A DNA stretch of 36,216 nt, taken from positions 1 to 36,216 of IMG/VR virus record IMGVR_UViG_3300025151_000127; one strand, written 5' to 3'. The position numbers and the translations under genes are program-made. Positions 1,628 through 14,688 of this stretch are shown here, piece after piece (position 1 is the stretch's first letter; each line of letters starts with the position of its first letter). The DNA comes from a virus. The notes under the pieces are model-generated. The model saw nothing but the letters and a program-made list of their open reading frames with translations, did no database searches and had not been told where the DNA came from.

Positions 1628-1711
1628 GGGACTCAAAAAACTTTAAGGGACTCCTAGACTTTTAAAAATTGGGACCCCTATTTTGGGACTCCTAATATGT
1701 TGGGACTCCTA
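1628..1711 (+). repeat. GGGACTCCTA repeat cluster
   Basis: Exact GGGACTCCTA occurs at 1647-1656, 1685-1694 and 1702-1711, with variants GGGACCCCTA at 1671-1680 and GGGACTC at 1628-1634. An inverted GGAGTCCC lies at 1573-1580, touching the first palindrome. The copies are 14-24 bp apart and separated by AT-rich spacers. They run up to the start of the metalloprotease gene and look like binding sites in its control region rather than coding sequence. Confidence 0.7.
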
Positions 1712-1717
1712 TATAAT
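1710..1717 (+). promoter_or_regulatory. TATATAAT box 3 nt before a start codon
   Basis: CTATATAATTATATG precedes the metalloprotease gene here and, base for base over 15 nt, also the first small head-protein gene at 3952. It may be a phage-specific late promoter or an AU-rich initiation region. It lies too close to the ATG for an ordinary leadered transcript. Confidence 0.4.
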
Positions 1718-1720
1718 TAT

Positions 1721-3604
1721 ATGGCATTTGGACAAATAAGACGAGGTAGACACGCAAGGCTGGGAATGTTGCCCTCCAATAAAACTCCTGATTTAGCGGG
1801 AGAAAACTATTGTTTTTTGGGCTCCACTCCTTTAGAAGAGTTGCGAGAAGAGGCTAGATCTTTTTTACAAGACCATCCTGATCTTCTAGAAATATCTCAA
1901 GGTGGAGGAACACAACAGCTTGGAGCAGGTCCATATGTTGCTAAAACTGCTCTTGTAATTTTTCAGGTAGGAGGACCCTGCACTCTTTTACCTAATAGCA
2001 CTAACCCCGCACCTGATCCTTATGGCGGGTATACAACTGGAAACAATTGGGGATATAGAGATTCAAACGGTAATCCTGTTCAATATCCTGCCGAGTTTGC
2101 TGCTAGTAGAGGGGATGCCTATGGTTCATCAATAGTTCATGATCAATCAAAAATGGATCAGTATGCGGCTGATTTTACTAAGTATATCAATAACAGTTTT
2201 TTTGATGGGTACTATATTGAAGGACTAAATGGTGGTAACGCTGATATTTTTCATGGACCACAGTATACTACTCCTGAATCAGGTTTAACTTGTGGAAGTA
2301 CTTTATACCCTAAAACTTGTGGTCACGCTGGTACTGGAGGTTTGATTAAATGGATGCAAGATTTTATTGATGCTGATCCTGTGCTATCTCAATATGATAA
2401 AATATTTACTTGGACTTTAGGGTGTTGGTATAATGGAAATTGTGCTGGTAGTTACTCTGGGGGCGAATCTGGTAACCGTGTTATCTACTTTAATGCAGTT
2501 GATCCCACTTGCGGAAACTACCGAACAGATATTCAAATATACCGAACACAGTATACTGATCCAGATGCTAACAGTTTTAATCCTCAGTCCTGGATTGAAA
2601 TGTATTCTACAACAAATACAGATGAGTTTGTTTCAAATCACACAAATATTGGAACTGCAATTCATGAGAACGCACACCGAGTAAATTCTCCTTTAGGTTA
2701 TAGTTGGGCGCATGATACAAACATAGGCAAACCTTTCTCTACTGAAAATATTATAGCTAATAATATTTGTCCTTGCCAATTTAACGCACCTTGCGGAGCA
2801 GATGAGCAAGGACAGGTTAATAGGTTAGAGGTTGGCACTTTTGGAACTGGTCCCGATACGGACGAATGTTATAAACCAGGAGAGTCGGGGCATACAGGTC
2901 CAAACGGTATAAACCCATATAATATAATGAATTATATGATGAATTATTCAAAAACGAATAGACCATCAAATTGGATTACGGGAAGTGACGGAAAAGTGGT
3001 AAACTGTATAACGGGTCCTGATCCTGGACAAGCAGCGTTTAATGGATTACTAAGTCCTACACACATTCATGAGTTACCCCCTCATGGAAGTAACCCCTGG
3101 GAAGGTTCAGAAGAAGTGTGGATTCTTCCTTATGATTTTAAGCATATTGAGCCTGGGTCAACCTTTAATCAAAACTCAACTGGATTTAATAAGATACTCA
3201 TTAGAACTCCCATGAGTATTGATAGTTTTCCAACTCCTGGCCCAAGACAGTACATGTATCTGTCTTTCTATTCAAGAGGCTTTTGTAGCCCCGAAAGATC
3301 AGTTAGTCAATACCTTCCTCCTGGCGATATAAATGGAACTCTTTTAGTTTCTTGGGGTCCATACAGACCTCATCCAACTCCTGGTTTTATTTGGTACTTT
3401 AATTCTGTACCTTCTTTTATACGACAAAATTTGGCTCCACTTGGGCAACCAGAGAATACTCTTGAGCTTTCTCGTTGGAGGACAGAAAATACTCATGGTG
3501 ATCCTAGTTATTTCCCTGGATGGAATATTGAAGTGATAGATGAGATTAAGGATTCAAGCACTGGTTTACGCCTAGCAATTAAACTAAAAATTACTTCTTC
3601 GTAG
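1721..3604 (+). CDS. HExxH zinc metalloprotease, M6/M11-like secreted or virion protein
   Basis: This 627-residue protein carries HENAH at residues 315-319, the zinc-binding HExxH motif with Glu316 as the probable general base, and a further His at 331 (LGYSWAHD) as a possible third ligand. NIMNYM at 401-406 resembles the Met-turn of metzincins, although the spacing is longer than usual. An early KTALVIFQ strand and the C-terminal MYLSFYSRGF block recall M6/M11 (immune inhibitor/gametolysin-type) proteases. Many Cys pairs suggest an extracellular protein. I chose the ATG at 1721 over the one at 1697 because 1721 shares its 15-nt leader with the gene at 3952. The 3' end overlaps the convergent membrane gene by 14 bp. 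A role in breaching host surface protein or processing virion proteins is inference. Confidence 0.6.
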   Translation: MAFGQIRRGRHARLGMLPSNKTPDLAGENYCFLGSTPLEELREEARSFLQDHPDLLEISQGGGTQQLGAGPYVAKTALVIFQVGGPCTLLPNSTNPAPDPYGGYTTGNNWGYRDSNGNPVQYPAEFAASRGDAYGSSIVHDQSKMDQYAADFTKYINNSFFDGYYIEGLNGGNADIFHGPQYTTPESGLTCGSTLYPKTCGHAGTGGLIKWMQDFIDADPVLSQYDKIFTWTLGCWYNGNCAGSYSGGESGNRVIYFNAVDPTCGNYRTDIQIYRTQYTDPDANSFNPQSWIEMYSTTNTDEFVSNHTNIGTAIHENAHRVNSPLGYSWAHDTNIGKPFSTENIIANNICPCQFNAPCGADEQGQVNRLEVGTFGTGPDTDECYKPGESGHTGPNGINPYNIMNYMMNYSKTNRPSNWITGSDGKVVNCITGPDPGQAAFNGLLSPTHIHELPPHGSNPWEGSEEVWILPYDFKHIEPGSTFNQNSTGFNKILIRTPMSIDSFPTPGPRQYMYLSFYSRGFCSPERSVSQYLPPGDINGTLLVSWGPYRPHPTPGFIWYFNSVPSFIRQNLAPLGQPENTLELSRWRTENTHGDPSYFPGWNIEVIDEIKDSSTGLRLAIKLKITSS

Positions 3605-3896
3605 GTATAGGGGGAAATTGCGGTTGTTCTGAAACTCCAAAGGTTACATAAAACCACATTCCACAACCTAAGCAACCATCAAGAAAGAGATTGCCTGTCA
3701 TTGTTTGAAATAGTAGTGATACTCCCATTGCTGCCCAAAAGCTAAAGCAAAAAGCGCAATTTAAAAAGGTTCTTAAATAATTGTTTATTGCTCCAAGACG
3801 TTGCCGTAAAGGAAATAGGATGCTTGATTGAGTTACAATTACTGTGATCCCTATAACGGTGAGTGCCCATACGATAAAATTTACTAGATGTTCCAT
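3591..3896 (-). CDS. Small multi-spanning membrane protein with Cys-x-x-Cys-type segments
   Basis: The 101-residue protein has an N-terminal hydrophobic segment (about 5-25), a second containing LNCAFCFSFWAAMGVSLLF (about 46-64), and a third around CLGCGMWFYVTFG. The pattern of a C-x-F/W-C pair followed by FW and small residues is seen in short membrane proteins of the DUF1360 type, sometimes found in phages; this assignment is tentative. A holin-like or membrane-modifying role is possible. It is convergent with, and overlaps, the metalloprotease gene. TATAAT on the minus strand lies 5 nt before the ATG, echoing the leaderless layout of genes 1-4. Confidence 0.6.
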   Translation of the reverse strand: MEHLVNFIVWALTVIGITVIVTQSSILFPLRQRLGAINNYLRTFLNCAFCFSFWAAMGVSLLFQTMTGNLFLDGCLGCGMWFYVTFGVSEQPQFPPIPTKK

Positions 3897-3901
3897 ATCT
3901 T

Positions 3902-3907
3902 ATTATA
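3902..3907 (-). promoter_or_regulatory. TATAAT box 5 nt before the membrane-protein start
   Basis: Exact TATAAT on the minus strand, five bases before the ATG at 3894-3896. Unlike the four promoters at 152-1454, there is no recognisable -35 box at the right distance, so it could be a weak or late-type promoter, or chance. Confidence 0.35.
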
Positions 3908-3922
3908 GTAAAAAAATTTCGC

Positions 3923-3935
3923 GGCCCTACGGGCC
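3923..3935. other. GGCCC-TAC-GGGCC hairpin between divergent genes
   Basis: A 5-bp perfect GC stem with a 3-nt loop sits in the 55-bp gap between the leftward membrane gene and the rightward head-protein cluster. It stands out against AT-rich surroundings. No T tract follows, so it is not a standard terminator. Confidence 0.4.
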
Positions 3936-3951: not shown

Positions 3952-4149
3952 ATGAACTCATACGAAAAAATTTATAGTCTGATAACTGAGGAAAAACCAA
4001 AACCTTTGACAACAGCGGAAAAGCATAGCAAGTATAAGAAGTTATTATCCCAAGGAAAGGCTGGTCCCGCAGTAGCAGCAGCATACAAAGCAGGAACTTA
4101 CAACCCAAAAAAAGACTACAGCTCGGAAAATAGGCAGATGATGAAATGA
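3952..4149 (+). CDS. Putative internal head protein 1 (65 aa), capsid-targeting leader
   Basis: The protein opens with MNSYEKIYSLITEE, the first of eight such leaders in this window. In T4, internal proteins carry a short N-terminal helix that directs them into the prohead and is removed by the gp21 protease after Leu/Ile-x-Glu; here the predicted cut is after ITE. The remainder is Lys-rich (KPKPLTTAEKHSKYKKLL) and has no known domain, as expected for a DNA-associated, injected protein. The ATG at 3952 is fixed by family comparison, although the reading frame extends 36 codons further upstream. Its stop overlaps the next ATG (ATGA), so translation is coupled. Confidence 0.7.
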   Translation: MNSYEKIYSLITEEKPKPLTTAEKHSKYKKLLSQGKAGPAVAAAYKAGTYNPKKDYSSENRQMMK

Positions 4150-4415
4150 ACAGCTACGAAAGAATATACAACTTGCTCACTGAAGCAAAAGTTACAATAA
4201 AAAAGAAAGCAAGGTCAACGCGCCAAACTGTTGGTAGATTTAAGTCAGATAGAACAACTGCTATTGAAACAAGTGAGACTGAAGCAATGCAAAGAAGAGG
4301 AAGGCGAGGTATTGTTAGACATGCTAGAGCAACTGTTGGAGATCCTAGAACGGTTTTTAGTAAATCTCAAAGGTCTCAAGATGTGGAAGGAGAATACCGT
4401 AGAGGTGAACGATAA
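4146..4415 (+). CDS. Putative internal head protein 2 (89 aa), strongly basic
   Basis: The leader MNSYERIYNLLTEA matches the family, with a predicted prohead-protease cut after LTE. The mature part is extremely rich in Arg and Lys (IKKKARSTRQTVGRFKSDR, later MQRRGRRGIVRHARA and EYRRGER) and is probably unstructured when free. That fits packaging with DNA in the head. It starts in the ATGA overlap with protein 1 and ends 6 bp before protein 3. No enzymatic domain is visible, and its action in the host is unknown. Confidence 0.7.
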   Translation: MNSYERIYNLLTEAKVTIKKKARSTRQTVGRFKSDRTTAIETSETEAMQRRGRRGIVRHARATVGDPRTVFSKSQRSQDVEGEYRRGER

Positions 4416-4421
4416 GCTTCT

Positions 4422-4892
4422 ATGAACTCTTACGAAAAAATACATGATCTACTGCTAGAAGCTTGTTTTGTTTCTGAGCAAAAGGGTCGAGCACAAGGCA
4501 GAAAAAGACTAGCTGCTACCGCTGCCGTATTGGGAGGTTTAACCGCTGGACTACAAGGAACAGGAAAAGCCTCCATGCCTAATGTACCAAAACCAAGTAT
4601 AAGTGTTGCTAAAAGTTCTGATAAGCCCTCACCTCCCAGCTTACCCGTAACTCCTAGCAGAGAAGTTGCTACTAAGACTTCAGAAAAACCTGCTCCAGAA
4701 AGCGCGGAACAGGAGCAAGCGTTTAATGATGAAGTAAAAAGAATATTAGCAAAAAGAAAATATGATAGGGAGAACCCAGTCGAGACTCCTGCCGAGAGGA
4801 AAGCAAGACATCTAAAACTACAAAGAAGCATAGATCAAGAACAATTAAGAATTGATTTTGATAAAAGACAAGGGAGAAGTCCAAGAAGATGA
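4422..4892 (+). CDS. Putative internal head protein 3 (156 aa)
   Basis: The leader MNSYEKIHDLLLEA gives a predicted cut after LLE. After it come a basic stretch (KGRAQGRKRLAATAAVLGG), a short Gly/Ala-rich hydrophobic patch, a Pro/Ser/Lys-rich linker (about residues 50-95), and a charged helical C-terminus ending GRSPRR. The middle hydrophobic patch is too weak for a confident membrane segment. This is the longest member of the family. Its stop overlaps the start of protein 4 (ATGA), placing proteins 3 and 4 and the following lipoprotein in one coupled transcript. Confidence 0.65.
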   Translation: MNSYEKIHDLLLEACFVSEQKGRAQGRKRLAATAAVLGGLTAGLQGTGKASMPNVPKPSISVAKSSDKPSPPSLPVTPSREVATKTSEKPAPESAEQEQAFNDEVKRILAKRKYDRENPVETPAERKARHLKLQRSIDQEQLRIDFDKRQGRSPRR

Positions 4893-5302
4893 ACTCATAC
4901 GATAAGGTTTTCAGTATACTAACTGAGAATAAAAGAAAAAAGCAAGCAAGAAAAAAAGCTCAGAGGTTTGCTACGGCTCAAGAAACTAAAAGAAGAATGT
5001 CTCTCACACCAAAAATGAGAGAGGTTGAGGATGAACTAAAATCTCAGGGGTATGGACACCTTAAACTTGATGATCCAAAAATAGCTTCTACTGCTAGAGA
5101 TTCTATTAGCCTTCATAGGGGAGAGAATTGTGTTGGAAATACATGTAGAGATATAGTTGCACAACATGCTACTGAGACTGAGAAGGATCTAACTAGAACA
5201 CAAGCTAAAAGACAAGGTTATGCTAGGTATAGAGGATCAGATCCTACCGCAGGAGCTACAAGAGAAAAACTTGCTAGAGAGAGGCCCGATAATCCAAGAT
5301 GA
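4889..5302 (+). CDS. Putative internal head protein 4 (137 aa), basic
   Basis: The leader MNSYDKVFSILTEN gives a predicted cut after LTE. The body starts with a Lys/Arg cluster (KRKKQARKKAQRF) and continues as a long charged helical-looking protein with two Cys close together (GENCVGNTCRD, about residues 76-85) that could form a disulfide or bind metal. It ends RERPDNPR; several members end in Pro-Arg or Arg. It overlaps both neighbours by ATGA. No domain is recognised. Confidence 0.65.
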   Translation: MNSYDKVFSILTENKRKKQARKKAQRFATAQETKRRMSLTPKMREVEDELKSQGYGHLKLDDPKIASTARDSISLHRGENCVGNTCRDIVAQHATETEKDLTRTQAKRQGYARYRGSDPTAGATREKLARERPDNPR

Positions 5303-5784
5303 GAACACTTCTAATAGTATCCATGCTTATTATTCTAAGCAGTTGCAGCACAATCAAACACGCAGTAGGTGGTGCTTTAGGTGGAGGAATAACCGCAGCC
5401 TTTCTTCCTGAGCCAGCAGTAGTTGCAGCAGGAGCCGCAGGGGGTGTAATGCTCACAGAAGTTATTATGCCTTCCGCAAGTCCAGCAGCCATTGTCGGTC
5501 AGGTAGCAGGGGCAGGACCAGTACAAGGAACAACCGCTTCTACGCTGCATGAAACAGGTGGGTTAATTAAGACATTAGGATACTGGTGGTTAATCCTTTT
5601 TGTGTTCCTTCCCTTGTTTAGAAAGAATGGTAGGAATTGGTTTAAGAAGCTTGGAGACATTCACAACACTGTTTCTCAAGCAGACATTGATGCGCGGGAT
5701 GATGAACAGGATGTGATTATGAAGAAAAATGAAAGTAGGATTGCTGCTTTAGAAGAGATGATTCATTATAAGGAGAGTGTGTAA
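5299..5784 (+). CDS. Lipoprotein with glycine-zipper and second membrane segment
   Basis: The 161-residue protein begins MRTLLIVSMLIILSSC, a signal sequence with lipobox LSSC and Cys16 as the expected lipidated residue. A Gly/Ala-rich hydrophobic region follows (GGALGGGITAAF and VVAAGAAGGVML, about 24-55), like glycine-zipper membrane segments. A second hydrophobic segment, WWLILFVFLPLF, lies near residue 95-107, followed by a basic patch and a charged helical tail. It could be an outer-membrane spanin-like or superinfection-exclusion protein, but the second membrane segment is unusual for either. It is coupled to protein 4 through ATGA and overlaps the next start. Confidence 0.6.
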   Translation: MRTLLIVSMLIILSSCSTIKHAVGGALGGGITAAFLPEPAVVAAGAAGGVMLTEVIMPSASPAAIVGQVAGAGPVQGTTASTLHETGGLIKTLGYWWLILFVFLPLFRKNGRNWFKKLGDIHNTVSQADIDARDDEQDVIMKKNESRIAALEEMIHYKESV

Positions 5785-6698
5785 TGGCTTTTGGTACAGT
5801 CACAGGAGGTAGGACAGAAGCAGGTCCACCCCCATCTTCTGAGGATTGCTGCCTTTTAATTAATTCAGTAACTGCTAATTTGAATGTAGAAACATTACAT
5901 GATGTCCCTATACGAACCGCCGAAAGAAAGTATCGAGTTTATGGCACTGTGACTGCAAAAGCGGAAAAGAGATGTATCCCCAAAGTTATTCCTGAGCCTA
6001 ACGAATTTGCAGGGCCTGCTGTTCTTCAAGGACCTCATTGGAGTTGTGGCAATTTCAAAATCCCCCTTACTTGCGCTGGTGGAAGGTGGCCTAAACCAAA
6101 AAGACCTGACCCCTTTAAGCCAGGAGAGGAGAGACCAAAACCTGAGAATGAAGTTGATTTTGGTTTTGAATTTAATTGTAAACCTATTCCTGGACTCCCT
6201 ACTCCCCCTTCACTGAAAATGTGTTCTGTAGAGTGGGAATCCTGCTCTGAGCCCTGCTCAAGCGATCCAGCTAATTGCTATTGCAACGTAGAGCAAACCA
6301 CTTCCGTAGATTTTGAAATTGATTTCTTAAATATCGCTGGGGATCTTGCAGGGATAATTCGAGCAGCAAGGAGCTTAATTCCAGGTATTGGCAGTAGCGA
6401 TGCTGTAAGTGTTGCAGGACTAGTTGATGATCTTGGTGGGTGCGCTGTTAAATTTTTTAAGGAATTAAAAACTAAAATGCCTAAAGGCGTTTGTGGAAAG
6501 AAGGTAAACTGCGAGTGTCAAAAAGAAGGAGAGGATAGATCTTTTGCATTACCAGATAAAAAACCTAAATTTGATCCTCTGTCTTTTGCCCCAAGTTGGT
6601 TAGGTAATCTTGTCGAAGCTGGTGGTACTGGTTCTACAGATGCAGAAACAAACAAGCCTTGTGATTGTGAAACAAACTTTAAGCCTAAAGGATGGTAG
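5784..6698 (+). CDS. Cys-rich structural-type protein (304 aa) next to PAAR tip
   Basis: No family is recognised. I count 17 Cys, many in pairs (EDCC, CYC, NCEC, CDC), with Pro-rich segments (GPPPSSEDCC, PGLPTPPSL). There is no export signal. Such Cys density suggests metal binding or disulfides formed in the mature virion. A good AGGAG lies about 9 nt before the ATG. Its end overlaps the PAAR gene, so it may belong to the tail-tip assembly; that role is inferred from adjacency alone. Confidence 0.6.
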   Translation: MAFGTVTGGRTEAGPPPSSEDCCLLINSVTANLNVETLHDVPIRTAERKYRVYGTVTAKAEKRCIPKVIPEPNEFAGPAVLQGPHWSCGNFKIPLTCAGGRWPKPKRPDPFKPGEERPKPENEVDFGFEFNCKPIPGLPTPPSLKMCSVEWESCSEPCSSDPANCYCNVEQTTSVDFEIDFLNIAGDLAGIIRAARSLIPGIGSSDAVSVAGLVDDLGGCAVKFFKELKTKMPKGVCGKKVNCECQKEGEDRSFALPDKKPKFDPLSFAPSWLGNLVEAGGTGSTDAETNKPCDCETNFKPKGW

Positions 6699-6982
6699 GA
6701 ATAACAACTACAAATACCTTAGCTTCTTGTTTGCATTCTATGACAGGAAGTACTTCAGTTTTTGCTGAGAGTGGTGGAATATCAAAACCATCACTAGATG
6801 GGACTATTGTTGGCGGGAGCATATTAGGCCTAGGCTCATCAACAGTGTTTTGCGAGGGTATGCCTATGGCATTAGCAGGGAGCATAATCGCTCCTCACGG
6901 CGAATGTACCGCAATACCTCCAGTGCTGTCTCATTGCACTGCCATAACCACAGGTACAATAACAGTAGGAGTAGGAATATGA
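6692..6982 (+). CDS. PAAR-type spike tip protein (96 aa)
   Basis: The 96-residue protein shows the PAAR repeat pattern of Gly-rich turns with His and Cys: GSTSVFAESG, VFCEGMPMALAGSIIAPHGEC, LSHCTAITTGTITV. In T4 the equivalent gp5.4 sharpens the end of the gp5 spike and binds a metal ion through His/Cys at the apex. Length matches single-domain PAAR proteins. The start overlaps the preceding gene's last codons (GGATGGTAG), so translation is probably coupled. It lies far from the gp5-type spike at 31196, which is unlike T4. Confidence 0.7.
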   Translation: MVGITTTNTLASCLHSMTGSTSVFAESGGISKPSLDGTIVGGSILGLGSSTVFCEGMPMALAGSIIAPHGECTAIPPVLSHCTAITTGTITVGVGI

Positions 6983-7115
6983 AACGATACATGATCCCAC
7001 GCACAGCACATTGCTGAAAAGGTGCTTAACTCCTTTCGTGAAAGGAAAAAAGATTCCTCTTTATTGTTCTTTTCTCCCTAAATAGAAACGGGGACAGGAA
7101 GAACAGGAAATTACT
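6983..7115. other. 133-bp non-coding gap with small hairpin
   Basis: It contains TCCTTT-CGTG-AAAGGA (6-bp stem, 7031-7046) not followed by a U tract, and the late-type CTAAATA box noted separately. A 12-codon ORF (ATG at 6979) overlaps the PAAR stop but is too short to call. Confidence 0.4.
7078..7085 (+). promoter_or_regulatory. CTAAATAG late-promoter-like box
   Basis: CTAAATA lies about 31 nt upstream of the next ATG. A second CTAAATA has nearly the same distance (35 nt) to the ATG of the gene at 9391. Both genes follow a gap and have good ribosome sites. It resembles the 3' part of the T4 late octamer. Confidence 0.4.
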
Positions 7116-7538
7116 ATGGAAAAACCAATGATGGATAATAAAGGATATATTGATGTTCAGTCTGCTCTCAAATTAAAAGAAGCTGAAGGCAGGGTTGAAA
7201 GAGAAAGAAGAGAGGCCGAGGGTAGGGTAGAGGTTGATAAGCTTAACGCTGAGTCAGATGCAATGTTTCGTGAATTACTTATTCGTGAAAGTGCAAAAGA
7301 AACAGCATCAAAGCACTTAGCTAAGTTTGCTGGGTTTTACCTAACTTTCCTAGTATGCACCTTCATTTTTAGTATACAGTTCGTACCTGAAACTAGTATT
7401 GCTGTTGTTGCAGGTTTGATTACGCTTGTTGTGACAAATCTATCGACTATTCTTAAGGGAATTGTTGAGAATGGTGATGACAAAGATGAGGTTGAGCCTG
7501 GATCAAGACCAAAAACTGTTAAAACCAAGCTTCAATAA
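7116..7538 (+). CDS. Coiled-coil protein with two membrane segments, holin-like
   Basis: This 140-residue protein has an N-terminal charged helix with repeats of EAEGRVERERREAEGRVE (about 23-40), then two hydrophobic segments: FAGFYLTFLVCTFIFSIQF (about 69-87) and SIAVVAGLITLVVTNLSTI (about 93-111), then a charged tail. Two close membrane helices with charged ends are typical of class II holins, but a long N-terminal coiled coil is unusual, so other membrane roles are possible. AGGAAA provides a ribosome site 5 nt before the ATG, and a CTAAATA box lies upstream. Confidence 0.6.
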   Translation: MEKPMMDNKGYIDVQSALKLKEAEGRVERERREAEGRVEVDKLNAESDAMFRELLIRESAKETASKHLAKFAGFYLTFLVCTFIFSIQFVPETSIAVVAGLITLVVTNLSTILKGIVENGDDKDEVEPGSRPKTVKTKLQ

Positions 7539-7553
7539 AAAAGGAATAATAAT

Positions 7554-7787
7554 ATGAATCCACTATGGTCACTGTTTTTCAAAGACAGATTAAGAACACC
7601 CTTCTCGGTGTATAAAATGAGTTTAGCAGAGTTAGTATTTTTGGGAGCCGTTGCCTTTGGGTGTGGTTTTGGGGCAGTGAAAGGCAGTAAGTGGCTTGTA
7701 AATCTTCTTCAGAATAATGCTGCTGAGGCTACTGTAGAAACTCAACCAGTTGTCGAAACTGAATCTGTTGTTGTCGAAGCTCAATAA
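7554..7787 (+). CDS. Small single-span membrane protein (77 aa)
   Basis: The product is unknown. It has a hydrophobic segment LAELVFLGAVAFGCGFGAV (about residues 24-42) and an acidic, Val/Glu-rich C-terminal tail (VETQPVVETESVVVEAQ). A GGAAT site precedes the ATG. It follows the holin-like gene by 15 bp and its stop abuts the TTG of a small basic ORF, so the three probably form one operon. Confidence 0.6.
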   Translation: MNPLWSLFFKDRLRTPFSVYKMSLAELVFLGAVAFGCGFGAVKGSKWLVNLLQNNAAEATVETQPVVETESVVVEAQ

Positions 7788-7919
7788 TTGAACAAAAAGA
7801 ACAAAGGGTACAGAAACAAAGACCCTAGATATAATGAGAAGCTTGCTGTATTTAAACGGCAAGTGAAACGACTGTTTGTTCGAGAGACCAAACGAAAACA
7901 CGGAAAAAAATTAACATGA
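7788..7919 (+). CDS. Small basic protein (43 aa) with TTG start
   Basis: A TTG directly follows the previous stop (TAATTG) and opens 43 sense codons ending in an ATGA overlap with the next head-protein gene. The protein is dominated by Lys, Arg and aromatic residues (KKNKGYRNKDPRYNEKL, later VKRLFVRETKRKHGKKLT). The exact fit between neighbours on both sides, the same ATGA coupling seen throughout the cluster and the biased composition support a real gene. No function is visible. It lacks the MNW/MNS leader. Confidence 0.5.
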   Translation: MNKKNKGYRNKDPRYNEKLAVFKRQVKRLFVRETKRKHGKKLT

Positions 7920-8131
7920 ATTGGAAAGATAAAGTATACAATAGTTTGACAGAAGAACTCACCTCAGATGGGAAAAGGCAATTAGTTGGTACTGTAAGAG
8001 GCCGACAAAAAGGACTGAGACCTCACGGTGGTAGAGGCAGAGTAACAACAACCCATAAAAACGAAAAAGGGCAGACTGTGATTGTTACTAAGATGCCTGA
8101 TGGGACAGAAAAGAGAACAGTATTGAAATGA
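7916..8131 (+). CDS. Putative internal head protein 5 (71 aa)
   Basis: The leader MNWKDKVYNSLTEE matches the family, now with Trp instead of Ser-Tyr at positions 3-4; the predicted cut is after LTE. The mature part is basic and Gly-rich (GRQKGLRPHGGRGRV) followed by a beta-like segment (GQTVIVTKMPDGTEKRTVLK). ATGA overlaps join it to the small ORF before it and to protein 6 after it. No domain is recognised. Confidence 0.65.
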   Translation: MNWKDKVYNSLTEELTSDGKRQLVGTVRGRQKGLRPHGGRGRVTTTHKNEKGQTVIVTKMPDGTEKRTVLK

Positions 8132-8349
8132 ACTGGCAAAATAGAATATACGAAAGCTTAACCGAGGCATCGACTCGATCTAGAAGAAGGACAGGACAAG
8201 CTTCTGTGGATCCTGACATCACAGCAACTGAGAGAAGCAAAATTGATGCAGCTATGTTTGCAAAAATTCATGGTAATAAGCCTGAACAAAATAAGATTAC
8301 GAGAGAGGTTGCAAAAACAATTGCAGTAAGAAGACAAAAACCGCGATGA
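8128..8349 (+). CDS. Putative internal head protein 6 (73 aa)
   Basis: The leader MNWQNRIYESLTEA gives a predicted cut after LTE, followed at once by a basic run (STRSRRRTGQ). The rest is helical and basic and ends AVRRQKPR. The gene overlaps both neighbours by ATGA. The leader is nearly identical in protein to that of the family member at 10480, while the rest differs, which suggests a reusable targeting tag on unrelated cargo. Confidence 0.65.
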   Translation: MNWQNRIYESLTEASTRSRRRTGQASVDPDITATERSKIDAAMFAKIHGNKPEQNKITREVAKTIAVRRQKPR

Positions 8350-8690
8350 ATTGGCAAGAAAGAATCTTAGAACGCACACAAAGCTCATTTAAGTATAAAG
8401 TATGTACGGATTCTATTGCCAAGACCGCAGGAACCCCTAAAAGAAGCACTTGGAGTAAAGGAGCTAAACGCCGATATGATAGGTGTTTAAAGAAGGTTAC
8501 TGAATCTAAAGGAAACCCATATGCAACCCCAGGTATAGAGACAGGGACTGTAACAGTAAGAAGGGAGGATCCTTTTAAGAGGCTACCCCAAAATATTAGA
8601 GTTCAAGTTTTAGCTCGTAAAGCATTACAAACTAAAAGAGCAGCAGAGCTTGCTAGAAATATAGACCAGTCGGGTGGAACCCGAAAATAG
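8346..8690 (+). CDS. Putative internal head protein 7 (114 aa), divergent leader
   Basis: It begins MNWQERILERTQSS. The first six residues match the family, but the LTE cut motif is missing; ILE at 7-9 is the only Leu/Ile-x-Glu present. The body is basic with two Cys (KVCTDSIAKTAG, YDRCLKKVTESKG) and ends with an Arg/Lys-rich helix. It may be cut earlier than its relatives or not at all. It is the last gene of the coupled run and is followed by a strong terminator. Confidence 0.6.
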   Translation: MNWQERILERTQSSFKYKVCTDSIAKTAGTPKRSTWSKGAKRRYDRCLKKVTESKGNPYATPGIETGTVTVRREDPFKRLPQNIRVQVLARKALQTKRAAELARNIDQSGGTRK

Positions 8691-8734
8691 ACCAACTCGA
8701 AGTGTTTACGCTTTTCGTGTTTGGAACTTCGCTT

Positions 8735-8773
8735 AACTTCCCCTAATTCCTGTGTTTTAGGGGAAGTTTTTTT
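8735..8773 (+). terminator. Strong intrinsic terminator after head-protein cluster
   Basis: AACTTCCCCTAA (8735-8746) pairs perfectly with TTAGGGGAAGTT (8757-8768), a 12-bp stem with a 10-nt loop, followed by a T run to 8773. An extra CGAAGT/ACTTCG stem (8698-8703 with 8726-8731) precedes it. It ends the transcript covering 7116-8690. Confidence 0.9.
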
Positions 8774-8789
8774 ATTTAAGTAACCTATC

Positions 8790-8795
8790 TATAAT
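8790..8795 (+). promoter_or_regulatory. TATAAT box before the Hsp20 gene
   Basis: Exact TATAAT in the terminator-to-gene gap, with no -35 match at the usual distance. The gene after it is cut off from upstream transcription by the terminator, so a promoter is required here. The expected leader (about 8802-8854) could fold through AGAGT and ACTCT around GTAAGGG. Confidence 0.5.
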
Positions 8796-8854
8796 AGAAA
8801 GAGAGTTGCCGTAAGGGACTCTTTACCCCCTTGTCGAAAGAAAGGAGAAAAACA

Positions 8855-9280
8855 ATGGGAAACTTCTATTGGACTAATTTTGATTATGTTTGGAATAATC
8901 TCGATCTTGTCCTCCGAGACTGGCACCGAATGGTCGATGTGCCCAAGAAGCAATTAGCTTCACTTCCAAATTACCCCCACTCTGATTGTTGGGTAGATGA
9001 TGATTGTAACAAATTGTGGTTACGGTTTGCACTCGCTGGCTACGCGAAAGAAAATATTAGCGTAAAAGCCAGTAAAAATACTCTTAGAATCACCGCAACA
9101 GGAGAGGCAGAGAATGATGTCAAGTTCGTACATCATGGCATTAGCAAGAAAGATGTGGACTTTTCGTTGAATATTGACGAGGCTTTCGATTTAAAGAAAG
9201 CAAAAACTGATTTTGTAGATGGGCTCTTAACTATCGTTATTCCTAGAGCAAAGGAGGCAGAATTAGTGGATCTGATGTAA
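8855..9280 (+). CDS. Small heat shock protein, Hsp20/alpha-crystallin type
   Basis: The 141-residue protein has the alpha-crystallin core: LWLRFALAGYAKENISVKAS with the A-G-Y-x-K-E-x-I-x-V pattern, then LRITATGE, and the terminal strand DGLLTIVIPRAKE. Such proteins bind unfolding proteins without ATP, and related genes occur in T4-like aquatic phages. AAGGAG lies 7 nt before the ATG at 8855; an upstream in-frame TTG is less likely. Terminators on both sides make it a single-gene transcript, which suggests separate control and probably high expression. Confidence 0.85.
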   Translation: MGNFYWTNFDYVWNNLDLVLRDWHRMVDVPKKQLASLPNYPHSDCWVDDDCNKLWLRFALAGYAKENISVKASKNTLRITATGEAENDVKFVHHGISKKDVDFSLNIDEAFDLKKAKTDFVDGLLTIVIPRAKEAELVDLM

Positions 9281-9297
9281 TTTAATAACTCCTTGGT

Positions 9298-9343
9298 AAA
9301 AAATAAGAATCTTAATATTTTTTTATTAAGATTCTTATTTTTT
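9298..9343. terminator. Perfect 20-bp inverted-repeat terminator
   Basis: Left arm 9298-9317 and right arm 9324-9343 are perfect reverse complements around a T6 loop. The ends are A6 and T6, so it works as a terminator in either direction. It closes the Hsp20 transcript. The stem is unusually long and AT-rich. Confidence 0.88.
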
Positions 9344-9348
9344 AGATA

Positions 9349-9356
9349 CTAAATAC
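9349..9356 (+). promoter_or_regulatory. CTAAATAC late-promoter-like box
   Basis: It lies just after the terminator and 35 nt before the ATG at 9391, matching the box at 7078 in sequence and spacing. A promoter is needed here because a terminator lies on each side of the gene. Confidence 0.5.
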
Positions 9357-9390
9357 TCTTAGATTAAAGTAATACTAGGAGTAATCTATT

Positions 9391-10404
9391 ATGGCACCAG
9401 CAGCACAACCCGTCCCCCAACCACAGCAACCAACACAGACAAGCCTTCCTTTAGGTGTTCATTACGGAGGATCCGCAATTCCCCCCGCATCGGGTGTATC
9501 GGGAACTGGTACTTTTAATGGTCCTTGGATTATTGAACAACAATCATTAAATATTGAGTATGTTCGCGTTCCAATGACACAGCTTACAGGTGGAACTGGG
9601 GCCATAGATGTTACCTTGTCTTCAGCATCAATGACTCATGCAGTGGTAGGGACATCTTTGGCTGTTAGGGCAACGGCTTCGTGGAGTAAAGTGTCTGCTG
9701 TTGCTGCGTATCCGCTCTCTGGAGAGTATACTCAACCGCAAGTATTTGAGTTTTTCCCTGTAAGTTCTGACCCAGGAGGTGTTTCTTATGGTGATTTGAA
9801 TGCTAGTACTTTAGGTCCAATGGGAACCATTGCCACAGTGCTTCCCTACTACCATAGAAGGCCAATGACAAACGTCGAACGTAGTTACTCAGACTCAGAA
9901 TCCCAGTACTACCTGGGTTTAAACTCGTCTTCTTGTCATGGTTATAATTTTGCACTGAATGATCCTTCCGCTCTTAATAACACTATAACAATGGGCAACC
10001 AAAGCTGGTTCTTTAATAATTATGTTCATTGGGCAGGGATGAGAAGATTTAGAGGTGCTTTCTTAGCTGATTATGAGTTTGAGAATGCACTTGAATCTGG
10101 GGTAGAGGGATTCCAAGCTATTTCTACATATATGATTCCTGGAGCATACTCCACAGCTACTGAAAACTTAGGAAGAATTTATGATACGATTGATCAAGTT
10201 GCTGATGCTGTTCATAATTATAAATTAGTCAGAAATGGAAAATTAAGTGCTAATCATGAGATTTTAATGAATCAGTGCTTTGCTGATGGCAATGACACTC
10301 TTCCAGGATTGCATTGTGGTTACCACAACACTTTTTCTTTCAATGGGATTGGACAATACGATAAAAACAGACATGACTACAGTGGTGCTGTTGGAACTCC
10401 ATAA
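9391..10404 (+). CDS. Probable abundant virion protein, unrecognised (337 aa)
   Basis: The family is not recognised. The N-terminus is Ala/Pro/Gln-rich (MAPAAQPVPQPQQPTQTS), the rest is beta-rich and aromatic with WFFNNYVHWAGMRRFRGAFL near the middle. There is no signal peptide. AGGAG lies 9 nt before the ATG. The gene stands alone between two strong terminators with its own promoter-like box, the arrangement expected of a highly expressed structural protein. It does not look like gp23, so a decoration, fibre or tail role is more likely, though unproven. Confidence 0.6.
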   Translation: MAPAAQPVPQPQQPTQTSLPLGVHYGGSAIPPASGVSGTGTFNGPWIIEQQSLNIEYVRVPMTQLTGGTGAIDVTLSSASMTHAVVGTSLAVRATASWSKVSAVAAYPLSGEYTQPQVFEFFPVSSDPGGVSYGDLNASTLGPMGTIATVLPYYHRRPMTNVERSYSDSESQYYLGLNSSSCHGYNFALNDPSALNNTITMGNQSWFFNNYVHWAGMRRFRGAFLADYEFENALESGVEGFQAISTYMIPGAYSTATENLGRIYDTIDQVADAVHNYKLVRNGKLSANHEILMNQCFADGNDTLPGLHCGYHNTFSFNGIGQYDKNRHDYSGAVGTP

Positions 10405-10427
10405 AATAAAATAAAATAAATCACTAA

Positions 10428-10463
10428 AAAAAGCCAACTAAGTTCACTCCTAGTTGGCTTTTT
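10428..10463. terminator. Intrinsic terminator after the 337-aa gene
   Basis: AAAAAGCCAACTA (10428-10440) pairs perfectly with TAGTTGGCTTTTT (10451-10463) across a 10-nt loop: a 13-bp stem with A and T ends, able to act in both directions. It is preceded by four AT-rich units of the form ATAAA (about 10401-10420). Confidence 0.9.
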
Positions 10464-10466
10464 CTC

Positions 10467-10474
10467 TATATAAG
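10467..10474 (+). promoter_or_regulatory. TATATAAG box before head-protein gene 8
   Basis: CTATATAAGG lies 5 nt before the ATG at 10480 and directly after a terminator, so it is the only visible promoter candidate. Its AAGG could also act as the ribosome site, in which case transcription must start further upstream. Confidence 0.4.
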
Positions 10475-10479
10475 GTAGC

Positions 10480-10728
10480 ATGAATTGGCAAAACAAAATA
10501 TACGAAAATCTTGTTGAGACTGAAAACCCTGAAAACCCTGATAGCGATGACAGGCACTCAACAATTAGTGCTTTGGCTAAAGAAATAAAATCTATGAAAC
10601 CAGGAGAAGCGAGATCTGCAAAAATCCTGCAAGTTCAAAAGCTAATCACTGGCGGTAGACAAGCTGGCAGGGGCGCAATTGAAACAGCACCTAGGCGAAG
10701 AAGAAACCTACGAGACACTAGCAGGTAG
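10480..10728 (+). CDS. Putative internal head protein 8 (82 aa), isolated copy
   Basis: The leader MNWQNKIYENLVET gives a predicted cut after LVE. The following ENPENPDSDD stretch is acidic, then the protein becomes basic and ends PRRRRNLRDTSR. It lies apart from the other seven members, just upstream of the terminase region, with its own box and terminator. Its 3' end overlaps the convergent glycosyltransferase gene by 21 bp. Confidence 0.65.
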   Translation: MNWQNKIYENLVETENPENPDSDDRHSTISALAKEIKSMKPGEARSAKILQVQKLITGGRQAGRGAIETAPRRRRNLRDTSR

Positions 10729-11400
10729 ATTCTTTCCAAAAATCTTAAGAAAAGCCTCTCTATTTTTGTGCCAAGAGTCTCTCCCCGCTAATTCGCCTAT
10801 TGATTCGTGACGAATTTGAATTGGTAGCGTATAATTTTTTTTGCCTTTTTGATAGGTTTGGAAAGTGTAGAAGATGTCGTAGAAATCCCATTTTCCTACA
10901 AAAGCTTTGGGTTGTTTAAGCTGTATTGATCTTAGTGTTTTTTTGGTAGCAGCTAGGAACACACCATCCATAACCACAACTTCTCCTAACTGTCCGAAAA
11001 AAGTAGCACTCATAGAATCAAGATCCTCTCCGTGGAAAACGTAACCACTATGAGACCCTGCTTTCCATTGTTCCATATCCCACCAAACTCCCGTTTGGGC
11101 AAATCTTCTTGTTCCTGCAATTCCTACAAAACCCGTATTATCTTTTTTAAGTTTTTGTTTAAGCATGTGGGTAAATACTTCTGGGCGTGTGAGTATCTCA
11201 ATGTCATCATGACACATGATAATAATATCGTCTAGGTTTGCATCCAGGTCATCAAGGCCTTTATCATAAGCTTCAAAAATAGATTTTTCACCATAAAGTA
11301 CTTTTGATTCAATATTGCAGTTTTTAAAGTACTCTAATAGATTGGTGGTAGTTTGTGATAGGTCTTTGTCTCGGGTACATGTTAAGGAGTAAATATTCAT
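10708..11400 (-). CDS. GT2-like glycosyltransferase (230 aa)
   Basis: The N-terminus (MNIYSLTCTRDKDL) and IIIMCHDDIEI (about residues 59-69, with an Asp-Asp metal/nucleotide site) fit a GT-A fold. Later VVVMDGVFLAATK and KWDFYDIFYTFQTYQKGK, then RHESIGE, match small GT2-type transferases with a WDFYD-like acceptor region. It may modify phage DNA, a virion protein or host surface sugars; nothing in the sequence decides which. Its ATG (11398-11400) shares the tetranucleotide CATG with the terminase start on the other strand. No ribosome site is seen upstream, since that region is inside the terminase gene. Confidence 0.7.
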   Translation of the reverse strand: MNIYSLTCTRDKDLSQTTTNLLEYFKNCNIESKVLYGEKSIFEAYDKGLDDLDANLDDIIIMCHDDIEILTRPEVFTHMLKQKLKKDNTGFVGIAGTRRFAQTGVWWDMEQWKAGSHSGYVFHGEDLDSMSATFFGQLGEVVVMDGVFLAATKKTLRSIQLKQPKAFVGKWDFYDIFYTFQTYQKGKKNYTLPIQIRHESIGELAGRDSWHKNREAFLKIFGKNLPASVS

Positions 11401-12940
11401 GGAAAATGATGTCTTAAAGGAGTTTAAACGATGTAAGGAGGATCCTGCATACTTTATGTGTAAGTATGTTAAGGTAACACACCCTGTTCGTGGACTAGTC
11501 CCTTTTAAATTATACCCGTTTCAAGAAAGAATAGTTAAAGAAATAGAGATTAATCGTTTCAATATTCTTAGAAAATTCAGACAGGCTGGATGTACAACCA
11601 TTGCTTCAGCATATGCATTGTGGTTGGCAGTTTTTAAAAGAGATCAAGCTATTATTATCTTATCAAAAGGTGATACCGAAGCCACCGAGGTTCTTGACCG
11701 TATTAAAGTTATGTATGAAGAACTTCCTGGTTTCCTACAGCCAGGGATTACAGAAGACAACAAACATACGCTAAAATTAAAGAATAGATCAGTAATCAAG
11801 TCTAGACCTTCAGGAAAGCAATCAGGTAGATCTCTTGCTGGCTCCTTTTTGATCATTGACGAGGCTGCATTCGTTGAATCAATTGACACGATCTGGGCTG
11901 CTGTTTATCCAATTATCTCGACAGGAGGTAGAGCCTTTATTCTGTCTACTGTGAATGGTCTAGGTAATTGGTTTTACGAAACCTACACAAAAGCTGTTGA
12001 GAAAGCTAATTCATTTAACGCTATTGATATTAGATGGAAAGAACATCCAGAATACTATAGAACACAGGGCTTCGAATATATTTATGAAGAGATGGAAGCT
12101 AGAACTCCTCCTGCTGATATTGATGATTGGGCAAAGATTACCCAATCTAATATGCCTAGAAAACAATGGCTACAGGAATATGAGTGTGAGTTCTTAGGCA
12201 CGGGAGATACTTTTATTGATGGTATAGTCTTAGCAGGATTGATGGAGCAGGTTGATACTGAGTTTTATACAAAATATAATAATAGGATGCGCGTGTGGAA
12301 AGATCCAGAGCCCTTTTACGATTACATCATTGGGGTGGACACCGCGCTTGGGCGAGATCGTGACTACTCTGCGGCACAAATTATTAACATATATAACGGA
12401 GAAGTTGTTGCAGAGTTTTACAGCAACAAAACACCAATAAATGAGTTTGCCTCAATACTAAACACGGAAGGTCTTTACTATAATCTAGCAAATGTTGTTG
12501 TAGAAAGAAATACAGTGGGAAATCATGTGCTTGATTTGCTCTATAATGATTTTGAGTACGAGAATGTTTGGCACGATGATCGAGGCAACCCAGGATTCCA
12601 AGTGACATTAAAGAATAGAGATACTATTTTATCTGAGTTAGAAGAAAGTATTCGAACGAATGTATTAAAAATTAATTCCCAACGAACTTTAAATGAGCTA
12701 AATACTTTTGTAATAACTAACTCGGGTAGGATAAGTGCCGATAAAGGGAAGCATGATGATTTAATTATGAGTTTAACTTTGGCAAATCATGTCCTGAAGT
12801 CGGTTAGAGACAATTCTTTAGTAGAATTTAACCGGGATAGTGCTTTTAATAACGATAAAATGTATCCAAATAAACCGCAAATCCCTTTAATCTCCCATGG
12901 TGGGCAAAAAGTTGAAGATTTAAGATGGCTGATGAAATAG
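11399..12940 (+). CDS. gp17: Terminase large subunit, gp17-like
   Basis: The 513-residue protein is the DNA-packaging motor and headful nuclease. ATPase: RKFRQAGCTT (58-67) in the Walker A position, Walker B with Asp154-Glu155 (FLIIDEAAF), coupling motif ILSTVNG (181-187). Nuclease: GVDTA with Asp314, VVER with Glu369, and KHDDL with Asp453, the expected acidic triad. The Walker A Lys of GKT is Cys here; Lys59 or an Arg may take over, as in other variant phage terminases. AAGGAG lies about 8 nt upstream, inside the divergent glycosyltransferase gene. It is shorter than T4 gp17 (610) and overlaps the portal by 16 bp. Confidence 0.95.
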   Translation: MENDVLKEFKRCKEDPAYFMCKYVKVTHPVRGLVPFKLYPFQERIVKEIEINRFNILRKFRQAGCTTIASAYALWLAVFKRDQAIIILSKGDTEATEVLDRIKVMYEELPGFLQPGITEDNKHTLKLKNRSVIKSRPSGKQSGRSLAGSFLIIDEAAFVESIDTIWAAVYPIISTGGRAFILSTVNGLGNWFYETYTKAVEKANSFNAIDIRWKEHPEYYRTQGFEYIYEEMEARTPPADIDDWAKITQSNMPRKQWLQEYECEFLGTGDTFIDGIVLAGLMEQVDTEFYTKYNNRMRVWKDPEPFYDYIIGVDTALGRDRDYSAAQIINIYNGEVVAEFYSNKTPINEFASILNTEGLYYNLANVVVERNTVGNHVLDLLYNDFEYENVWHDDRGNPGFQVTLKNRDTILSELEESIRTNVLKINSQRTLNELNTFVITNSGRISADKGKHDDLIMSLTLANHVLKSVRDNSLVEFNRDSAFNNDKMYPNKPQIPLISHGGQKVEDLRWLMK

Positions 12941-14688
12941 AAAAAACCTTAGTTGAAGATGGTGGACAGAGCACTTTCGGCGGTATGCCTGGGCGTGGAC
13001 CTTACTTTTACCCAAGAGGGGCCTTAGGTAAGTGGTTTGCTAGGTTTTTTGCAACACCTGCCCAAGATGATTTAATAGCCAGTATTAACGATATTGAGAG
13101 TCCAGGGGTTGTTGGCGATACAAAAGTACAAAATACTGATATTAAAGATAATACAGGATTGGCCTTTACCATAAATCGAGCTACCCCTGTATACACGGAG
13201 ATTGAAAGAAATAGGAAATCTAGGTATAGAGAGTATGAGCAAATGGATGAGTATCCTGAAGTTGGTGCTGCTTTTGATGTTTATGCTGATGATTGTACCC
13301 AAAGAGATACACAGAGGAGGAGATGGTCAGTAAAATCTGATAGCCCTGAAGTGGTTAACGCTGTAGAGGATCTTTTTGAAAATATTCAACTAGACAGAGT
13401 GTATTACGATATTTTTAGAAATACAGTAAAGTTCGGTGATTGTTTTTTAGAGCTTATTGCAGATGTTAATAACTCCTCTGCTGGTATACAAAAGGTTAAG
13501 GTTTTAAATCCTAACTATCTGCTAAGGGTTGAAAATGAGTATGGCTACCTTAAAACCTTTATCCAACAAATTCCTGATAAGTTAACCACAGACACCTCCT
13601 TTGAAGATCAAAGTGAGTACGGGCTAAAAAATTCTAAGTTTGTGGAATTAGATAAAAATCAAATTGTTCATTTTCGTTTATTCACCTCTGATCCTAAGTT
13701 TTATCCTTATGGCAAGTCTGTTGCTGCTTACGGAGTACAAACATTTAGATCTCTTAGGATGATGGAAGATGCTATGCTTATCTACAGGCTGGCTAGAGCC
13801 CCTGAAAGACGCATATTTTACATTGATGTCGGAAATCTTCCCGCTAGTAAAGCCGAACTCTTTATGGAGCGTGTAAAAGAAAAATTTAAAAAAGAGAAAT
13901 ACTATAAAGGGAATGGTGTTAACGCAAGGTATAACCCTCTTGCAGCAGATGAGGATTTCTTTGTACCTATCAAAGGAAACCAAAGCACTAAGATTGAGAC
14001 TTTGCCTGGAGCTACCAATTTAGGCGAGGTTACAGATGTTTCCTACTTTAGGGATAAGCTTCTGGCCGCTTTGAAAGTGCCAAAGGACTTTGTTTCTGTA
14101 GACAAAGACAAATCAGCAGAAAGAAAAGCAAACTTATCAGAGCTTGATGTTAAATTTGCGAGAGCAGTTTCTAGGGTTCAGCATGAGGTAGAGGTAGGGT
14201 TAGAAATGATAGCTAAAAGACATTTAGCTATGAAGAATTTTCCCACTTCATTGATAAATTCTTTAAGAATTCAACTTCCCGATCCTTCTGATAGATTTAC
14301 AAAAAGAAAACTTGAGATTGACCAAGCTAGATTGGCAATTATTCAAACAGTAACACAAACTCAATTATTTCCTAAAGATTATATTTATAAAGAGTACTAT
14401 GAGATGAGTGAAGGGGAGATTCTAGTAGTTAAAGAGAAGCTTAAACAAGAGGCCGAGGAGTCTGCCTACCAACAACAAGAACTCAATCAAATTTCTCCTG
14501 GAGCAGGAGAAAGGCCTCAGGGCAATACCCCAGGTGGGATGGAGTCAGTTCCATCTCAAGAGCAAAGGCCTACAGAAGAATTAACTCACATACAGGAATT
14601 ACCCAAAAAACTACTAAAGGAGAATGGGTATAGGTCTCCTGAACAAAAAGTGTGGGAAAGAATTTTAACAAAAATAAAAAAATCTTAA
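12925..14688 (+). CDS. gp20: Portal protein, gp20-like
   Basis: This 587-residue protein forms the dodecameric vertex through which DNA is packaged and ejected. The order terminase-portal and motifs such as the acidic EYEQMDEYPEVGAAFDVYADDC, the stem region and FVSVDKDKSAERKANLSELD support gp20. It is somewhat longer than T4 gp20 (524). The N-terminus MADEIEKTLVED contains a Leu-x-Glu that could be a prohead-protease site, and the C-terminus is Gln/Pro-rich before a basic end. It overlaps terminase, so the two are co-translated. Confidence 0.93.
   Translation: MADEIEKTLVEDGGQSTFGGMPGRGPYFYPRGALGKWFARFFATPAQDDLIASINDIESPGVVGDTKVQNTDIKDNTGLAFTINRATPVYTEIERNRKSRYREYEQMDEYPEVGAAFDVYADDCTQRDTQRRRWSVKSDSPEVVNAVEDLFENIQLDRVYYDIFRNTVKFGDCFLELIADVNNSSAGIQKVKVLNPNYLLRVENEYGYLKTFIQQIPDKLTTDTSFEDQSEYGLKNSKFVELDKNQIVHFRLFTSDPKFYPYGKSVAAYGVQTFRSLRMMEDAMLIYRLARAPERRIFYIDVGNLPASKAELFMERVKEKFKKEKYYKGNGVNARYNPLAADEDFFVPIKGNQSTKIETLPGATNLGEVTDVSYFRDKLLAALKVPKDFVSVDKDKSAERKANLSELDVKFARAVSRVQHEVEVGLEMIAKRHLAMKNFPTSLINSLRIQLPDPSDRFTKRKLEIDQARLAIIQTVTQTQLFPKDYIYKEYYEMSEGEILVVKEKLKQEAEESAYQQQELNQISPGAGERPQGNTPGGMESVPSQEQRPTEELTHIQELPKKLLKENGYRSPEQKVWERILTKIKKS

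Follow-up and report, generated by a model that had tools for sequence, protein, structure and literature searches.

Eight small proteins encoded on one stretch of marine viral DNA begin with a common leader of 13 residues and then diverge completely, which raises the question of what the shared start is for. The stretch is the entire IMG/VR record IMGVR_UViG_3300025151_000127 (36,216 bases, hereafter the window), classed as a virus record and possibly a fragment; its source is an uncultured marine relative of T4, within the T4 superfamily. We argue that the leader is probably a tag resembling the capsid-targeting sequence (CTS) of T4, one that would carry exchangeable basic cargo into the prohead, where the protease gp21 would cut it off.

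All eight genes lie on the plus strand; a slash in the sequences below marks the end of the leader. Protein 1 (3952..4149, 65 amino acids; leader of 13 codons at 3952..3990, MNSYEKIYSLITE/E) has a basic body, and its leader Met is at 3952, though a mechanical open reading frame (ORF) call reaches back to a GTG at 3844. Its stop codon is overlapped by the ATG of protein 2 (4146..4415, 89 amino acids; leader 4146..4184, MNSYERIYNLLTE/A). Then come protein 3 (4422..4892, 156 amino acids; leader 4422..4460, MNSYEKIHDLLLE/A), with a body of one hydrophobic segment followed by charged sequence, and protein 4 (4889..5302, 137 amino acids; leader 4889..4927, MNSYDKVFSILTE/N), the start of which overlaps the stop of protein 3. 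Further along are protein 5 (7916..8131, 71 amino acids; leader 7916..7954, MNWKDKVYNSLTE/E), protein 6 (8128..8349, 73 amino acids; leader 8128..8166, MNWQNRIYESLTE/A), protein 7 (8346..8690, 114 amino acids; degenerate leader 8346..8384, MNWQERILERTQSS, lacking the L-x-E cut form) and protein 8 (10480..10728, 82 amino acids; leader 10480..10518, MNWQNKIYENLVE/T). An earlier note on this DNA had described eight ORFs with a common leader, of full form in seven, which diverge completely behind it into mostly Arg/Lys-rich sequence. That description was borne out: ATG starts are found at 3952, 4146, 4422, 4889, 7916, 8128, 8346 and 10480, L-x-E or I-x-E stands at residues 11-13 in 7/8 (the exception being 8346), the divergence is complete within the window, and the bodies have isoelectric points (pI) of 9.9-11.6 with 20-28% lysine plus arginine.

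The grouping was recovered by a blind scan for ORFs that have their first 13 residues in common but unrelated bodies, run with shuffled controls. The scan found 15 pairs sharing an N-terminus in the window versus 0 after shuffling, and grouped exactly the eight leader ORFs. Among sister records, it returned groups in L004 (8+2), G015 (7+3), G001 (5+2) and G002 (4), while leader arrays were not found by it in the cultured marine T4-like phages S-PM2, P-TIM40 and HTVC008M or in Caulobacter phage Cr30. On T4 it recovers ipI, ipII and ipIII together with gp61.1. The last of these (NC_000866 18966-19130), annotated as hypothetical, has an N-terminus, MKTFKEFIKED, that resembles the leader of the T4 internal proteins (IPs), and may be a further T4 CTS protein.

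When the leader motif was looked for in related phage genomes, 79 strong leader proteins were gathered from sister contigs, and 91 members in a wider set. Because the gathering profile spanned residues 1-13, part of the conservation within the leader is built in; the loss of conservation past the leader and the charge of the bodies are not products of that profile. The boundary is sharp, with 3.35 bits of information at residue 13, 0.89 at residue 14 and 0.54 at residue 15 across the 79 strong members. Residue 11 is Leu or Ile in 75/79 and residue 13 is Glu in 67/79 (MNSYERIYNLLTEAKV is an example of a leader with Glu13), and L/I-x-E occurs within residues 9-18 in 71/79 clade members and 7/8 window members. 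There are two leader types, MN-S/T-Y-[ED]-[KR]-IY and MN-W-[QK]-[DN]-[KR]-IY, which form separate clusters both in L004 and in the window. With a median pI of 4.9 the leader is acidic, and it is also amphipathic, having a hydrophobic moment of 0.49 versus 0.28 for shuffled sequences. An AlphaFold2 model of the 10480 product places a helix at residues 3-13, low confidence at 14-16 and two helices thereafter, at a modest overall confidence (64). A second leader family (MSNFKKLLKVIEE) stands on very basic small proteins in G015, at 3661-3930, 5052-5267 and 104635-104955.

Could the shared start simply be left over from a recent tandem gene duplication, or from recombination between short stretches of homologous DNA? 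The genes are arranged in tandem, with stops that overlap starts, as such an origin would have it. However, synonymous positions of the leader DNA diverge to nearly the extent that codon usage predicts: synonymous codon agreement among the window leaders is 24/44 versus 18.3 expected, and 9/19 versus 8.6 expected. Since this is little above the codon-usage expectation, selection acts mainly on the peptide, and recent DNA copying alone is no explanation. The bodies, moreover, show no common ancestry and a tag without Met persists inside a longer protein (see below), so that we hold a relic to be very improbable. Still less credible is a derivation of the leaders from decayed HNH homing endonucleases, which have similar N-termini in T4 (MNYLNIYNLLIEKG); two T4 ORFs of this kind, 37885-38679 and 3654-3800, were paired by the blind scan. 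Against this, Pfam HNH models have 0 matches in the 91 members, and the L-x-E end and the basic cargo would be left unexplained. We disfavour both readings.

The bodies behind the leader share their charge and little else. Body pI exceeds 9 in 79/79 strong members (median 10.8, lysine plus arginine 25%), compared with 28% of 185 other small ORFs from the same genomes. Clustering by similarity divides the bodies of the 91 members into 51 groups, of which 34 hold a single body, and a Pfam and PHROG search of these members returned no credible domain. Turnover is fast: no relative yielded a homologue (tblastn, E 1e-4) for the body at 3952, 4146, 4422 or 4889, and that at 4422 gives a weak match to L133_1641 in pairwise comparison. 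The interleaved gene at 7116, by contrast, reaches 77-88% identity in the best records, and TerL about 83%. Orthologous bodies with a leader in the same place occur in relatives for 7916 (84-86% conserved in sister contigs), for 10480 (syntenic homologues just upstream of TerL) and, with a degenerate leader, for 8346, whose body domain is 83-92% conserved between relatives. One body can also stand behind different leader types, that at 8128 being 58% identical to part of L136_1242, which carries the S/T-type leader MNTYDRIYTLITEA. The domains DWIQGA and CTDSIAKT have no match in cultured phages. In L229 (2986-3744), the 8346 domain (CTDSIAKTAGT..RYDRC) is N-terminal and leader-less in a 252-residue ORF, and a leader-like segment of another sequence, MNKLLERIKKLVEAK, comes after it. 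Some proteins have a single hydrophobic segment (LAATAAVLGGLTAGLQG-like) soon after the leader and are perhaps membrane-active cargo; they are window 4422-4892, L133 598-1641, L004 2584-2877 and L138 11357-11881.

This anatomy resembles that of the T4 internal proteins IPI, IPII and IPIII, in which a short leader with an aromatic residue at position 4 and an L/I-x-E end likewise heads otherwise unrelated small basic proteins. The T4 sequences at these sites are FLTE/A in gp23, STITE/A in ipI and EFIAE/A in ipII and ipIII, and we take the cut positions to be established. The mature T4 IPs have computed pI values of 9.0-9.7, both systems show diversity between relatives, and a gp21-type protease is encoded in the clade. 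L/I-x-E precedes the cut made by T4 gp21; the T4 CTS has 10-19 residues, of which 4 and 7 mainly direct targeting and 8 and 10 direct processing (PMC9026906). T4 Ip1-3 have only the leader in common, yet each is injected and each blocks a distinct GmrSD enzyme; at least 10 Ips are reported across T-even phages (PMC12373910). The principle of one conserved leader on diverse internal proteins is thus known from T-even phages (PMC3012670); what differs here is the length of the leader, the size and place of the array, the polyproteins and the protease tail. T4 has its IPs in two separate loci, whereas each clade contig has some 8-13 leader starts arrayed next to TerL and portal, and the clade has in addition in-frame polyproteins with internal tags and a tag with cargo on the protease tail. 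We found no description of the longer leader, the array size and place, the polyproteins or the tagged protease tail in the open-access papers searched.

The internal tags were found in several sister contigs, where a single reading frame joins two or three tagged cargos (L004_2874, L004_2020, L013_4003, L126_6210, L138_11348 and L144_3237). In L133_1641, a body related to that at window 4422 is followed by ESNSYDRIFEDLISE and a second body, and this second body is a separate gene in G002, where it starts with MNSYERIFEAFISE. The internal tag of L133_1641 has been kept although its start codon is lost; therefore the tag is more than a translation start.

The protease itself provides a further setting for the tag. 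In the first set of relatives, an S77 prohead protease and gp23 are encoded in 5/5 of those of at least 63 kb, and the protease is also present in a 110-kb relative. The relatives' proteases match PF03420 at 1.7e-27 to 4.2e-24, and the T4 catalytic residues His85 and Ser140 are conserved in 4/4 aligned sequences (G001-G004). While the gp21 open frame has 202-233 amino acids in the cultured T4-like phages checked, it often has 276-547 in the clade, with a basic C-terminal tail; in G003 and G004, which have no leader arrays, gp21 has 201 amino acids and is tail-less. The pattern [YF]xx[LIVF]xxx[LIVM]xE, which has the spacing of leader residues 4-13 and was chosen after the tails were inspected, occurs in 12/16 gp21 tails versus 0.2 expected from shuffles. 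When the tails are aligned on the tag, mean pairwise identity is 0.36 in the 25 residues before it, 0.45 within it and 0.08 in the ten residues after it, and the cargo behind the tag ranges from 5 to 257 amino acids. A scan of the tails with the leader profile was mostly negative because Tyr8 is Lys or Arg there. As judged from sequence, then, the gp21 tail repeats the anatomy of the leader genes in another setting. It is an even bet, in our estimate, that the tag is a mobile capsid-loading signal usable at any position, at N-termini, between polyprotein cargos or on the protease, such that one maturation event would free many swappable effectors, whether they act against host defence or in host takeover, within the head of an uncultured marine phage group.

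Tag, boundary, body charge and turnover, the protease of the relatives and the internal and protease-borne copies are features of the sequences themselves; docking, cutting, packaging and ejection are what we infer from them. The amphipathic helix (aromatic residue at 3/4, Ile7, Tyr8, Leu11) would dock precursors onto the scaffold core of the prohead. A gp21-type protease would then cut at the L/I-x-E end of the leader during head maturation, and the freed bodies, small and very basic, would remain with the DNA and be ejected into the host at infection. The tag is modular. Rapidly replaced cargo genes that it heads form the array next to TerL and portal; in sister phages it also stands between cargos joined in one polyprotein, and the protease carries it in a C-terminal tail, ahead of further cargo.

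Alternatively, the leader could be a conserved helix through which these proteins assemble with some other partner, such as a host protein or a component of the tail, and be neither head tag nor cut site. Genes of the 8346 type retain the helix without the Glu, and cleavage of the leader is a prediction. However, conservation stops exactly at a gp21-type site, and the same Glu-ended core recurs in the tail of the prohead protease, with identity collapsing directly after it; we consider this alternative unlikely.

Several points weigh against the capsid-targeting interpretation. The gene at 8346 and 8/79 family members have no L/I-x-E within residues 9-18, and the bodies have no match among known families. 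A protease gene is missing from the window; the record is a fragment, and so the protease and gp23 genes are not reached in it. The gp21 tails are mutually homologous, so that the 12/16 are not 12 independent events, and four tails lack the pattern. The clade leader is one helical turn longer than the T4 CTS (Tyr4-Glu13, spacing 9, versus Tyr4-Glu10, spacing 6), and neither the leader nor the bodies showed sequence homology to the T4 CTS or IPs, with no match in Pfam or PHROG. Since homology was not found and the Tyr-to-Glu spacing is longer, we class the leader as CTS-like and not as a T4 IP homologue. The earlier note's idea of a capsid-targeting-like, reusable tag stands strongly supported by the L/I-x-E end, the clade protease, the internal and protease-borne copies and the basic bodies like those of T4 IPs, short of a demonstrable homology to the T4 CTS. 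The absence of a prohead protease, which that note would have counted against its idea, is not what the relatives show: a gp21-type protease is present in every one of at least 63 kb, the window itself being a fragment.

What the cargo does is less certain. Injection and an anti-defence role rest on analogy because the bodies match no known family; by that analogy, the fast-changing bodies may be anti-defence proteins like T4 Ip1-3. The main rival is that the tagged prohead proteins have a structural role, acting as protamine-like fillers of the core that neutralise the packaged DNA, under little sequence selection beyond charge. All bodies are strongly basic (lysine plus arginine 25%), many look low-complexity, AlphaFold2 models are just moderately confident, and relaxed selection would likewise yield fast divergence. 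T4 IPs are themselves basic, present at about 360 copies each and thought to interact with DNA, and IPIII affects head assembly. On the other hand, some bodies are well conserved between relatives with defined residues (84-86% for 7916, 83-92% for the 8346 domain), and T4 Ip1, Ip2 and Ip3 are basic too, yet are specific GmrSD inhibitors (PMC12373910). We rate a structural role as a serious possibility at somewhat under even chances; it is compatible with an anti-defence role and need not exclude it.

Terminal processing in other phages offers further comparisons. T4 Alt is processed at either terminus, and a C-terminal cut is presumed for gp21 as well (PMC9026906, PMC5694885); the clade gp21 differs in reaching up to 547 amino acids with a tagged, variable basic tail, versus 202-233 amino acids. 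The tagged C-terminal tail bears on the question of gp21 self-processing. PhiKZ-like giant phages (SPN3US, S80 proteases) also remove many head propeptides after Glu and have a self-processing protease, but several propeptides of SPN3US exceed 100 residues and no short tag is reused over an array. The cultured Flavobacterium phage immuto, with a portal 30% identical, has its own protein sets with common short N-termini (MKKSQLRQIIKE, MENFDLKKFLVEN); its leader sequences are different, its bodies are mostly acidic or neutral, and their annotations are hypothetical or unrelated names. These shared-leader families lie at 102250-125424 of MW353176, some adjoining TerL, portal and gp21.

If the capsid-targeting interpretation is right, the tag would allow candidate injected cargo to be recognized in uncultured ocean phages without body homology; the 79 strong members would be such candidates, nearly all of them without known relatives. 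For T4, it has become clear only recently that all of Ip1-3 are injected and that they inhibit different restriction enzymes (PMC12373910). The copies in polyproteins and on the protease would, in turn, show that the tag is independent of position.

The array lies beside head genes, namely TerL (gp17-like, 11399..12940, plus strand, PF03237) and portal (gp20-like, 12925..14688, plus strand, phrog_213, E 1.7e-77). Together with these two, a UvsW-like helicase, a primase, an exonuclease, a baseplate hub and a gp25-like wedge subunit place the window in the T4 superfamily. The portal served as the query for sister phages, and relatives of it are encoded in 574 IMG/VR stretches. Cultured phages are distant, with portal identity of at most 36% among those listed, and neither the window nor the array has a nucleotide match in them. 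Among the relatives, G001 (130 kb) comes from the single-cell genome of a Prochlorococcus, of which it is one contig, yet psbA, tried as a host marker, was absent from 7/7 long relatives, G001 included.

Directly upstream of the array, a 635-residue ORF (1697-3604, plus strand) contains an HExxH motif (TAIHENAHRV) and is a possible zinc metallopeptidase; it has no match in Pfam or PHROG. Relatives of the Cys-rich neighbour at 5784-6698 were looked for and none was found. The portal C-terminus (EQKVWERILTKI, 14600-14688) is similar to the core of the W-type leader, perhaps as a shared docking surface, maybe by chance. An Hsp20 chaperone gene (8831-9280, plus strand; 79-92% identity in relatives) lies between two leader clusters, and a glycosyltransferase gene (Glyco_tranf_2_5, PF13712; 10708-11400, minus strand), found in 79 records and 72-77% identical in the best relatives, separates the array from TerL on the opposite strand.

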